Part shown: piece by piece, positions 34,541-37,614 of the stretch
Numbering within the stretch: the first letter of the stretch is position 1
Layout of the letters: the number at the start of each line of letters is the position of its first letter
Assembly (NCBI GenBank): GCA_006212015.1
Contig: SDAY01000004.1
Span: 1 to 49,519, forward strand
Length of the DNA stretch: 49,519 nucleotides
Reading direction: 5' to 3'
Origin: Halothiobacillaceae bacterium
Lineage (GTDB): Bacteria; Pseudomonadota; Gammaproteobacteria; Halothiobacillales; Halothiobacillaceae
The notes under the pieces: generated by a model
Told to the model about the DNA's origin: nothing
The model's input: only the letters and a program-made list of their open reading frames with translations
Databases searched by the model: none
Made by a program: the position numbers and the translations under genes

Positions 34541-35359
34541 TCAATGACTGATGCCCAGCACCCACTCCAGCACGATCTTGCTGCCGAAGTAGGCCAGCAG
34601 GAGCACGCCGAAGCCGCTGAGGGTCCAGCGCACCGCGGTGCGGCCGCGCCAGCCCATGAACAGGCGGCCGAGCAGCAGGGCGCCGAACACCGCCCAGGAG
34701 ACGATGCTGAGGACGGTCTTGTGGACCAGGTGCTGGGCAAAGATGTCCTCCAGATACATGAAGCCGCTGGCCAGCGCGAGGGTCAGCAGGATGAAGCCCG
34801 CGCCGATGAAGCGGAAAAGCAGCGTTTCCATCAGTTCGAGCGGGGGCAGGATGCGCGACATGGCGAGCGGGCGGCGCTCGTGCAGGGCGCGGTGCTGCCT
34901 GGCCAGCAGCAGAGCCTGCAGCGCGGCCAAGGTGAACAGGCTGTAGGCCAGCACGGACAGAAGGATGTGGGCCTCCAGGGCCGGCTGGGTGCCCACCAGG
35001 TTGCGCGGCGCGGTGGGCCAGGCCAGCTGTGCGCCGAGCGCGAGCATGGTCAGCGGGAGCACGGCGAGGGCGAGGTTCTCCAGCGGCTGGCGCAGGCTGG
35101 ATGCCAGCACCAGCAGCAGGGTGACCAGGCCGGACAGCGACAGGGCCTTGAGCACGCCCAGGTCGAGCCCCTCGTCGATGCAGGCGCAGCTGGCCAGGGT
35201 TCCTGCATGCAGGACGGCGCCAAGGAAGGCGATGGCCATCGCAGCCCGCTTGGAGGGCGATTCCCCGGCGCGCAACAGGCCGATGCGCCGCCACAGCAGC
35301 AGGGCGGCGATGGCATAGGCGATGAGGGCGGTGATTCCGAATCCGAGCGAGGCGGACAT
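34541..35359 (-). CDS. ypjD: YpjD-like inner membrane protein, cytochrome c assembly (CcsA/CcmC) fold
   Basis: The 272-residue protein has eight likely membrane helices and belongs to the CcmC/CcsA/YpjD group. Conserved histidines such as the one in ALEAHILLSVLAYSLFTLAA and the later HLVHKTVLSIVSWAVFG (a tryptophan-containing helix) fit the fold, although YpjD itself is not a proven haem handler. Its gene usually sits divergent from ffh and upstream of the CNNM gene; here the CNNM gene is present but ffh is not, and a hairpin cluster occupies the upstream side. Confidence 0.88.
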   Translation of the reverse strand: MSASLGFGITALIAYAIAALLLWRRIGLLRAGESPSKRAAMAIAFLGAVLHAGTLASCACIDEGLDLGVLKALSLSGLVTLLLVLASSLRQPLENLALAVLPLTMLALGAQLAWPTAPRNLVGTQPALEAHILLSVLAYSLFTLAALQALLLARQHRALHERRPLAMSRILPPLELMETLLFRFIGAGFILLTLALASGFMYLEDIFAQHLVHKTVLSIVSWAVFGALLLGRLFMGWRGRTAVRWTLSGFGVLLLAYFGSKIVLEWVLGISH

Positions 35360-35379
35360 GGGCTATTCCTTGAGTAACG

Positions 35380-35625
35380 CGCTCAGAGGCTGTGAAGAAA
35401 TCGTAGCGAGCGCCCCGAACAGGATGCTGAAAAACCTCATCCATGAGTTTTTCGGCCATACCAAGTCCGGTACACGCCCGGACTTGCCATGCGAAAATCA
35501 ATCACTTACGTGATTGATTTTCGTGCGGGACATCCATGTCCCGCCTTAGCAGGCTGCTGAAATAAGTATTTCAGCAGCCTGCGAGAGCTGCGTTGGGGCG
35601 CGCAGTAAATTAATTTACGATTTCC
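35380..35625. mobile_element. Hairpin-cluster element resembling a MITE
   Basis: Within about 250 bp of gene-free sequence are outer imperfect inverted ends (AAATCGTA 35398-35405 against TACGATTT 35616-35623; GCGCCCC 35410-35416 against GGGGCGC 35595-35601). Inside are five consecutive hairpins: 35426-35456, 35463-35485, 35492-35523 (perfect 14-bp stem, TTAC loop), 35525-35544 (perfect 9-bp stem) and 35549-35582 (perfect 16-bp stem). A 14-bp palindrome GTAAATTAATTTAC (35605-35618) follows. The left edge carries the 17-bp sequence CGCTCAGAGGCTGTGAA, repeated exactly at 45407-45423. No transposase is encoded. Confidence 0.65.
35549..35582. repeat. Perfect 16-bp-stem inverted repeat
   Basis: GCAGGCTGCTGAAATA, AG, then the exact reverse complement. 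It is the strongest single hairpin of the 35380-35625 cluster. It lies just after the end of the FAD-linked oxidase gene, so could stop or stabilise that transcript, but no T run follows on either strand. Confidence 0.9.
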
Positions 35626-35629
35626 TAGT

Positions 35630-37054
35630 TTATGACGCGCTTGCCTGCCCCGACAATGGGGCGGACAGGCCGCCGGTCAGCGGCAGCGTCTTGTCGGCAT
35701 TGAGGATGCCCGCGGGATCGAACACGGTCCTGATCTGGCGCATCAGGTCGAGGGCGGTGTCACCCAGTTCCCTGTCGATGAAGTCGCGCTTCTCAAGGCC
35801 CACGCCATGCTCGCCGGAGAGCGTGCCGCCGAGTTCGAGCACCAGGGCGAAGACCTCGTCCAGGCAGGCATGGGCGCGCTCCCATGCGCCGGGTGCGTCC
35901 GGATCGAGCAGCAGGTTGACGTGGATGTTGCCGTTGCCGGCATGACCGAAGTTGATGATCGGGATGGCATGCGCGGCAGACAGCTTTTCCAGCCCGCCGA
36001 TCAGGGCGGGGATGCGCGAGACCGGCACGACCACGTCCTCGTTGATCTTCTTCGGCGCGACCTTGCGCAGGGCCGGGGAGAGCGCCTTGCGGGTCGCCCA
36101 CAGGGTCTGGACCTCGGCCGCATCCCTCGCCTCGCGCCATTCCAGCAGGCCGTCGACCCCGGCCGCCGCGCGGATGGAGGCGAGGGCTGGTTCCAGGCAG
36201 GCGGCCGGGCCGTCGACCTCGATCATCAGCATGGCGCGGGCGTGCACGGGCAGGTCGGCATCGGTGTGGCCGCGGATCATGTCCATCGCCGCGCCGTCGA
36301 TGAACTCCAGCGCGCAGGGTGTGACCGGCTGGGCCATCAGGCGGGCAACCGCGTCCGCCGCGCTCTGCATGTCGCGGTAGAGCGCGCGGGCGGTGCGAAT
36401 GGCCTCCGGCAGCGGGGTGAGCCGGAGCGTGGCCTCGGTGATGATGGCGAGGGTGCCCTCCGAGCCGACCAGCAGGCGGGTCAGGTCATAACCCACCACG
36501 CCCTTGGTGGTGCGGGTGCCGGTGCGGAAGTCGCGGCCGTCGCCGCTGATCGCCCGCAGGGCCAGCACGTTGTCGCGCACCGTGCCGTACTTGACCGCGC
36601 GCGGTCCGGCGGAGTTGTAGGCAAGGTTGCCACCCACGGTGCAGAACGCCGAGCTGGTCGGGTCGGGTGGCCAGAAAAAACCATGCTCGCGGGCGGCGTC
36701 CTGCACCTCGCCATTGGTCACGCCTGGCTCGACGACCATCAGCCGGTCCTCCGGGTTCACCTCCAGAATGCGGCTCATGCGCTCGAAGCTGAGCACCACC
36801 CCGCCATGAATCGGCACGGTGGCCCCGGTGGTGCCGGTGCCCCGCCCCCGCGCGGTCAGCGGGATGCGATGCGTGAAGCAGGCCTGGACCACGGCGCGGA
36901 CCTGCGCGTGATCGCTGGCGTACACGACGGCATCCGGCAGGGCATGGCGGCGGCTGTTGTCCATGCCGTAGGTCCACAGGGTGGCCCGCTCGGTGGACAT
37001 GTTGCCCGGACCCGCAGCGCGCTGGATGGCTTCAAGCTGAACCGGCCCAAGCAT
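35630..37054 (-). CDS. FAD-linked oxidase, D-lactate/glycolate dehydrogenase type
   Basis: The 474-residue flavoprotein has an N-terminal PCMH-type FAD-binding domain (about 40-215; PLTARGRGTGTTGATVPIHG, with FCTVGGNLAYNSAGPRAVKYG and LLVGSEGTLAIITEATL) and a C-terminal FAD-linked oxidase domain ending in NFGHAGNGNIHVNLL and TLSGEHGVGLEKRDF. These are the GlcD/Dld-like signatures; the substrate is probably a 2-hydroxy acid. There is no iron-sulphur domain or GlcE/GlcF partner nearby. The ATG at 37054 overlaps the last base of the SIS gene stop (TGATG). The stop TAA abuts the hairpin cluster. Confidence 0.92.
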   Translation of the reverse strand: MLGPVQLEAIQRAAGPGNMSTERATLWTYGMDNSRRHALPDAVVYASDHAQVRAVVQACFTHRIPLTARGRGTGTTGATVPIHGGVVLSFERMSRILEVNPEDRLMVVEPGVTNGEVQDAAREHGFFWPPDPTSSAFCTVGGNLAYNSAGPRAVKYGTVRDNVLALRAISGDGRDFRTGTRTTKGVVGYDLTRLLVGSEGTLAIITEATLRLTPLPEAIRTARALYRDMQSAADAVARLMAQPVTPCALEFIDGAAMDMIRGHTDADLPVHARAMLMIEVDGPAACLEPALASIRAAAGVDGLLEWREARDAAEVQTLWATRKALSPALRKVAPKKINEDVVVPVSRIPALIGGLEKLSAAHAIPIINFGHAGNGNIHVNLLLDPDAPGAWERAHACLDEVFALVLELGGTLSGEHGVGLEKRDFIDRELGDTALDLMRQIRTVFDPAGILNADKTLPLTGGLSAPLSGQASAS

Positions 37055-37614
37055 CAGGCCAGTCCGAGCAGGCGATGATCGAGTGCCTCGCACAGCGCAT
37101 GGGCCGCTGCCAGCGAGGTTTCATGCAGGGTGGTGGGGCAGGAGGTATCGAAGCTGATCACCAGGTCATCGTCCTGCAACTGACTCATCATGCTGTCCGC
37201 AAGGGCCGTGCCCATCAGGATCAGTCGCATGTCATGCTGGCGGGCACGTTCGATCAAGACGTCCAGGCCCTTCTGACGCCCACCGCTCAGGGCGAGCAGG
37301 GTGTCGCCGGGCGATGCGAGGCTACCGATCTGGATGCCGCATGAGGGGCCTTCGCCGGGCAGTGGGTGAAGCAGCACCACGGGCAGTCCGGGTCGCGGCA
37401 TGACCACGCCACGCAGGAGCAGGCCGGCAATCTGCTCGGCCAGCGATTGGGTTTCGCGCTGCGGGCAGAGGTAGACGCGGTGGCCATTGAGGCAGGTGCT
37501 CAACAGCAGTTCGGCGGCTTCGGCGAGCCTGGGGGCGGCGAGCTCGAGATGGGCGCGAACGCGCTCGAGGCGCTCGTTTGAGAGACGCAGGATCAGGTCG
37601 GAAAGAGGACTCAT
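37054..37614 (-). CDS. diaA: SIS-domain protein, DiaA-like
   Basis: In E. coli DiaA binds DnaA and times initiation; the fold is that of phosphoheptose isomerases (GmhA). The 186-residue product has a sugar-isomerase (SIS) layout: helical N-terminus, CLNGHRVYLCP, the segment SLASPGDTLLALSGGRQKGL, and a C-terminal HETSLAAAHALCEALDH. The position after lpoA-yraN is the conserved DiaA context, which is the main reason for the name; sequence similarity is modest. I chose the ATG at 37614, 7 bp after the yraN stop; an in-frame ATG at 37647 would overlap yraN. Confidence 0.75.
   Translation of the reverse strand: MSPLSDLILRLSNERLERVRAHLELAAPRLAEAAELLLSTCLNGHRVYLCPQRETQSLAEQIAGLLLRGVVMPRPGLPVVLLHPLPGEGPSCGIQIGSLASPGDTLLALSGGRQKGLDVLIERARQHDMRLILMGTALADSMMSQLQDDDLVISFDTSCPTTLHETSLAAAHALCEALDHRLLGLA

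Follow-up and report, generated by a model that had tools for sequence, protein, structure and literature searches.

The window, by which we mean the whole 49,519-nucleotide stretch of DNA analysed here, carries at 35420..35581 of its plus strand a non-coding, non-autonomous element of 162 bp that is built of five hairpins and is here called E1. Our verdict is that E1 represents a new, widespread and structurally conserved kind of MITE. We consider it likely that E1 is a MITE-type element served in trans by a DDE transposase, that it belongs to a family defined by five palindromes, and that the two arms of each palindrome are matched to each other at the level of the DNA. That a MITE lies nested within another repeat is ordinary and has good support; what is unusual is how broadly the five-palindrome plan is found, together with the strand-symmetric upkeep of the stems.

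The Element and Its Setting

E1 lies between two genes of the minus strand, as the preliminary description of this DNA had placed it: a ypjD-like gene for a cytochrome c assembly protein of the YpjD/CcsA type (34541..35359; PF01578) and, upstream of it on the same strand, a gene for an FAD-linked oxidase (35630..37093; PF02913 and PF01565). The distance from the ypjD start codon to E1 is 61 bp, and the named relatives of the ypjD protein (n = 3) come from two gammaproteobacterial MAGs and one Parendozoicomonas, which points to Gammaproteobacteria as the class.

The termini of E1 are inverted repeats of the type CAGG..TGAAA. The unit starts with CAGGATGCTGAAAAAC, its left terminal inverted repeat (TIR; 35420..35435, plus strand), which is 88% complementary to the right end, and it finishes with GTATTTCAGCAGCCTG; the right TIR (35566..35581), found by inverted-repeat and motif search, reads CAGGCTGCTGAAATAC on the minus strand. 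Between the ends every arm of the five tandem hairpins that had been described for 35380-35625 could be located, all of them given here on the plus strand. Hairpin H1 (35426..35456) has 10-nt arms that match at 90%, and H2 (35457..35491) has 14-nt arms that match at 86% in the window copy, which contains mismatched pairs. H3 (35492..35523, 14 bp), H4 (35525..35544, 9 bp) and H5 (35550..35581) are perfect, as stated before, although the 16 bp formerly counted for H5, in which the right TIR pairs with an inverted copy of itself, take in one flanking base on each side. Adjoining H5 is an internal tetranucleotide, TTAG (INT; 35546..35549), which in other copies often has the right flank as its reverse complement. 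The flanks themselves are CGAA on the left (35416..35419) and CGAG on the right (35582..35585), which agree at 3 of 4 bases. As RNA, 35420-35581 folds with -85.3 kcal/mol (z = -12.5; equalled by 0 of 200 shuffles), and as DNA the 246 bases of 35380-35625 fold with z = -11.9.

The region had been read as one bounded feature. Its outer arms, GAAATCGTA (35397-35405) with TACGATTTC (35616-35624) and GCGCCCC with GGGGCGC, are indeed present, but they belong to a second dispersed repeat, E2, whereas the five hairpins belong to E1. E2 was recognised as a separate family of matches covering 35379-35421, copies of which (e.g., L184 and L185) run CTCAGAGGCTGTGAAGAAATC or near to it. The left part of E2 in the window (CTCAGAGGCTGTGAAGAAATC.., 35380..35415, plus strand) was delimited by genome search and comparison of E2 copies, and the right part (..GGGGCGCGCAGTAAATTAATTTACGATTT, 35586..35625, plus strand), which is rearranged relative to other copies, by the same comparison. 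E1 lies inside a decayed copy of E2, and this copy supplies the outer arms, so that the earlier suggestion of nested insertions holds.

In the uninterrupted E2 copies L184 and L185 the sequence is ..GCGGCCCGAGAGC.., whereas the window reads ..GCGCCCCGAA, then E1, then CGAGAGC..; from this comparison E1 probably landed in CGAG. The right flank of E1 is accordingly the target-site copy, at which L184 and L185 read ..CCCGAGAGC.., and CGAA on the left is probably a decayed copy of the 4-bp target duplication. It should be noted, however, that because the E2 of the window is rearranged and some E2 copies (e.g., L187) have CCGAACAGGATCC where the left border lies, the exact left edge is less certain here than in other copies. 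E2 itself measures roughly 150-200 bp, and its ends resemble CTCAGRGCYTGTGAAGAAATC (copies L184, L185, L188, and L193). It has served as a landing site of E1 elsewhere too, at L003 and probably at L010.

Copies, Target Duplications and Empty Sites

When 35350-35650 was used to search the own genome, which comprises 2.39 Mb in 227 contigs, 55 matches resulted; at about 20 loci 35418-35583 is present in full or in part, with 83-97% identity. With at most one mismatch allowed, the end motif CAGGNNGCTGAAAWAC was counted 47 times, vs 0 times for the reversed control. The exact E1 pattern had no match in the search of genome contigs, and plasmid and phage records gave no match to E1. As is characteristic of MITEs, E1 is short, multicopy, without a transposase gene and bordered by TIRs. 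It is neither a single copy absent from relatives nor an element with unconserved hairpins: both copies and relatives were found. The idea that each hairpin might move independently was not borne out, since the order and length of the hairpins are kept among copies, apart from rare deletions inside the unit and H5 palindromes that stand alone.

Such solo palindromes of about 32 bp were seen at L142, L133, L151, and L196, the last flanked by TTAA and TTAG. Several other loci deserve mention. L048 (1360-1516) is a 157-bp unit that has E1-like ends but a differing G- and C-rich interior, and L028 (1575-1725), in the own genome, is a unit of five hairpins whose ends are of the GGGAAGCGCTGAACAA type; it adjoins a decayed E1 copy and scores 73.2 bits. 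In three copies from genome G024 (L198, L199, and L200) short stretches around H4 are duplicated in tandem, which looks like an arm copied twice, and one copy from G139 (L242) has in H2 a 12-base insert with an inverted repeat of its own.

For the analysis of target sites 55 units were extracted from ten genomes, and the flanks of 53 of them were compared, two being omitted as not five-hairpin units. The 4-bp flanks are identical in 22 of these 53 copies, vs 8.2 when right flanks were shuffled within genomes (reached in 0/5000 shuffles). Flank positions 1 and 4 both agree far above chance (0/2000 each) and a 5-base match occurs in no copy, from which it follows that the duplication is exactly 4 bp. 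Its consensus is YTAR. Exact 4-bp duplications are found also in other genera, in 7 of 28 loci vs 1.7 expected (1/5000; of 29 loci, L205 was omitted, its genome being part of the first set), and in 14 of 27 further copies from G139, G093, and G041 vs 6.8 expected (0/5000; G287, with heterogeneous copies and uncertain ends, is excluded from this count); examples are CTAC/CTAC, TTAT/TTAT, and TTAC/TTAC.

An E1 copy of G024 sits in the orfA of an IS3 element with TTAA on both sides: when E1 and one TTAA are removed, an uninterrupted OrfA results (PF01527, 6.3e-24). Together with the uninterrupted E2 copies L184 and L185 this orfA provides the empty sites expected of a MITE. The 4-bp duplications and the IS3 orfA copy with its rejoinable flanks show that E1 has been mobile. 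The reading as a non-autonomous mobile element, one of several that the preliminary description had offered, holds in the main.

A Five-Palindrome Plan Across Gammaproteobacteria

By DNA matching, first relatives of E1 were found in 13 of 57 genomes and in 3 of 34 genera. From the 55 units of ten genomes an alignment of 52 was made, three being omitted as not five-hairpin units or badly decayed. In it 88.1% of the cells are paired (89.6% in helix 1, i.e., H1), 34 of 63 pairs are altered on both sides, and covariation is seen in 13 of 13 pairs of H2; the covariation score is 0.250, vs 0.110 for shuffled columns and at most 0.095 with slid partners. The covariance model built from the 52 units gives the window copy 189.7 bits. 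Run on a sample of 274 genomes of the class Gammaproteobacteria, it matched 39, corresponding to 33 of 222 genera; the other 235 were without a match. The 29 loci taken from them show mostly five palindromes in order (least clearly L225, L228, L230, and L232), and most have ends of the type CAGG..TGAAAAA or GGAARCTCTGAA.

A further alignment comprises 24 of the 29 loci, with an E-value limit of 9e-15 that was set to exclude opposite-strand matches. Mean pairwise identity is 54%, 60 of 63 pairs show changes in both partners, and the covariation score reaches 0.635, vs 0.173 after shuffling and no more than 0.119 after sliding. The alignment was fitted to the covariance model, which favours pairing; the target duplications at the ends of the model are independent of this. 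Conserved loops, considered as a sign of function, were dismissed because the loops vary about like the stems, except in H2. Apparently, E1 belongs to an undescribed, widespread group of MITEs that is conserved in architecture. In the open-access literature, searched also by end and stem sequences and without subscription papers, no description of E1 was recognised.

Candidate Mobilising Enzymes

Young MITEs usually share their ends with an autonomous insertion sequence (IS) of the same genome, which is not, however, required. For E1 no mobilising transposase was found among the families searched. No paired TIRs at IS distance, as an autonomous partner of E1 would have, were found in the draft genome G000 or in the closed genome G008. 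PF01609 transposases are missing from G002, G003, G024, and G041, although G024 is rich in similar copies, and the one PF01609 match in G000 is an IS1182-like fragment without E1 ends. Searches for PF13751, PF13546, and IS30 revealed no E1 ends at any scanned locus, L180, L181, and L183 not being among these, and PF13546 (IS701-type) occurs only in G016 among the genomes searched. IS1182-like and other PF01609/PF13751 elements were therefore rejected as parents, their scanned loci (L180 and L181 excluded) being without E1 ends.

An IS30-like element was likewise rejected as the parent. A TIR does lie beside an IS30-like gene at C154, but a second copy of this IS, on C93, starts with GGCGCGCTCAAAATCC and is without the TIR, which indicates that the IS30-like IS jumped into an E1 copy. 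The IS30-like insertion at C154 (L036; G000:C154:2939-3153) lies in the first hairpin of an E1 copy, and the contig breaks there.

A 4-bp YTAR target duplication is characteristic of IS5-family derivatives. E1 could accordingly be a decayed derivative of this family, moved by IS5-type transposases, with hairpins that are a historical accident. Autonomous IS5 of E. coli ER1709 (1195 bp; ends GGAAGGTGCGAACAAG and GGAAGGTGCGAATAAG) is flanked by TTAA/CTAA, similar to the YTAR-like duplications of E1, and in 7 of the 29 loci the ends, which are of the GGAARCTCTGA type, match 10-11 of the first 16 IS5 bases, a result equalled by 0 of 300 shuffles. The CAGG-type ends to which the window copy belongs, however, match only 7-10 of 16 IS5 bases, which is mostly within the shuffle range. 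Moreover, PF01609 is absent from four copy-rich genomes, including G024 and G041, and an accident would not lead one to expect one and the same plan of five palindromes in 33 genera. We regard this derivation as a real possibility that nevertheless falls well short of an even chance. IS5-like mobilisation of E1 is a lead, not a finding; the DDE transposase of our preferred reading may perhaps be IS5-like.

Pairing Kept as DNA or as RNA

Strong covariation is commonly associated with structured RNA, which was another of the readings first offered for this region: E1 would be a mobile structured RNA, transcribed, with hairpins under RNA selection for transcript stabilisation or as an sRNA. The highly stable fold and the covariation in both the 52 elements and the 24 loci agree with this. 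There are precedents too, in that the QMITEs of Coxiella burnetii yield sRNAs (PMC5896051) and among bcr repeats about one copy in two is transcribed (PMC3446304).

Selection on RNA tolerates G-U pairs but not A-C pairs. The first set, with 3236 cells, contains 83 G.T and 116 A.C; for the second, with 1395 cells, the counts are 36 and 35, respectively. Under neutral decay the mismatches in dead copies are strand-symmetric regardless of what the master copy does, and therefore only the consensus-level count, which comes nearer to the mobile master but is small, is really diagnostic: of 542 pairs in within-genome consensuses, 492 are Watson-Crick, 6 G.T, 14 A.C, and 30 other (G041 enters twice, with two sets of copies, and G287, with 10 loci, and genomes with fewer than three rows are omitted). 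By comparison, nine tRNAs of the same loci have 12 G.T and 0 A.C among 193 pairs, a lenient control because ARAGORN favours such pairs, and one from which a tRNA-Lys call was omitted as apparently spurious. Since E1, unlike the tRNAs, shows no excess of G.T over A.C, the matching of its arms is probably maintained in the DNA, with template switching in hairpins as a plausible means, and not by selection on RNA.

Also against an RNA role, 35340-35660 is without a sigma-70-like promoter, the covariance model fits the opposite strand of several copies as well (L262 was left out of this run), and the Rfam search gave only matches far below the gathering scores, so that there is no Rfam family above noise to which E1 would belong. 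On balance a functional RNA appears improbable, and the covariation, strong as it is, does not bear out this part of the preliminary description.

How the arms change is seen when copies are compared with the consensus of their own genome: 87 double changes restore a Watson-Crick pair and 6 fail to do so, beside 223 one-sided departures (these are counts of cells, not of independent events). The tetranucleotide INT and the right flank are reverse complements of each other in 30 of 53 copies, vs 15.4 expected (0/5000), and this match is strongest beside the H5 stem and absent from position 5 outwards. Because the flank is host DNA, the process that matches the arms appears to act beyond E1. INT as a guide for insertion was rejected as the main reading, since copies with an intact duplication often mismatch INT and the match fades away from the stem.

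In the MITE reading that we prefer, a DDE-type transposase supplied in trans would recognise the short TIRs of E1, and E1 would insert at YTAR-like sites, duplicating 4 bp there. The family would have spread over Gammaproteobacteria with its palindromes unchanged in number, order and size while the letters drift. A change in one arm would be copied into the other, or corrected against it, while the DNA is single-stranded or cruciform, so that the arms stay matched; this upkeep may proceed via template switching or hairpin repair, and the four bases flanking H5 may be subject to the same process. Template switching is the likeliest cause both of the arm matching and of the flank effect, and homogenisation of this kind could have produced the covariation. 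It alone leaves unexplained why exactly five palindromes persist across many families; the five-palindrome layout may bring a benefit.

Relation to Known Elements

The nearest parallels of E1 in the open-access literature are the bcr repeats and the QMITEs of Coxiella. Like E1, QMITEs and other bacterial MITEs (reviewed in PMC10969869) are short, multicopy and foldable with TIRs and direct repeats. QMITE1 has 300-400 bp, and its authors found no orthologues elsewhere; QMITE2 has direct repeats of 7-11 nt and a GTAG REP (both PMC5896051). E1 differs from QMITEs in its 4-bp YTAR repeats, its five palindromes and its relatives in many families. The bcr1-bcr3 repeats of the Bacillus cereus group have been called MITE-like (PMC3446304), and Bcr1 is of similar size (147-167 bp) with a conserved predicted structure (PMC2267715). 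They differ from E1 in belonging to another phylum and, by the title of the paper that first described bcr1, in being specific to the B. cereus group; the comparison is one of descriptions only.

The IS5 of E. coli shares with E1 the YTAR-like flanks, and its ends resemble those of the GGAARCTCTGA subgroup of the E1 family, but it is autonomous with 1195 bp, and the CAGG-type ends of E1 are different. With respect to upkeep of the arms, template switching has been described as creating and maintaining hairpins of RNA genes (Monttinen and Loytynoja, 2022; PMC8794818). The multibase compensatory changes that this model predicts, which keep stems perfect, are like those of E1; the model was described there for RNA genes, whereas E1 is mobile DNA and the effect includes the host flank.

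REP/BIME elements, which are moved as single-stranded DNA by hairpin-reading HUH transposases of the RAYT type, are also dispersed palindromes. E1 would be REP/BIME-like in being hairpin-rich and dispersed and in having a tetranucleotide that precedes the H5 palindrome. However, E1 has true TIRs and lacks a fixed GTAG/CGTC tag, and its 4-bp target duplication speaks against simple HUH movement; REP/IS200-type movement is not known to produce a target duplication. We consider this origin very improbable. Finally, the hairpins might be terminators or unrelated inverted repeats clustered by chance, for which one terminator-like site in the region might be adduced. This reading is already refuted by the genome copies and the covariation of the 52 elements, and the only such site falls outside E1, which has, besides its repeated copies, a fold of z = -12.5 and a conserved architecture.

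Significance

MITEs are usually described per genome, their recognisable sequence being soon lost. The family of E1 is united by its five-palindrome architecture rather than by sequence, and covariance models make it possible to follow such elements through a whole bacterial class. That G.T and A.C occur about equally often offers a simple test that separates RNA selection from upkeep of palindromes at the DNA level, and multi-copy families like E1 could let template switching be measured in nature. Tentatively, and with slightly less than even confidence, we propose that a mobile DNA family here keeps its five palindromes by arm-to-arm copying of DNA and covaries without being a functional RNA. 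If this is true, the E1 family would be an example from nature in which covariation does not prove an RNA structure, and it would record template switching that reaches into the flanking DNA of the host.
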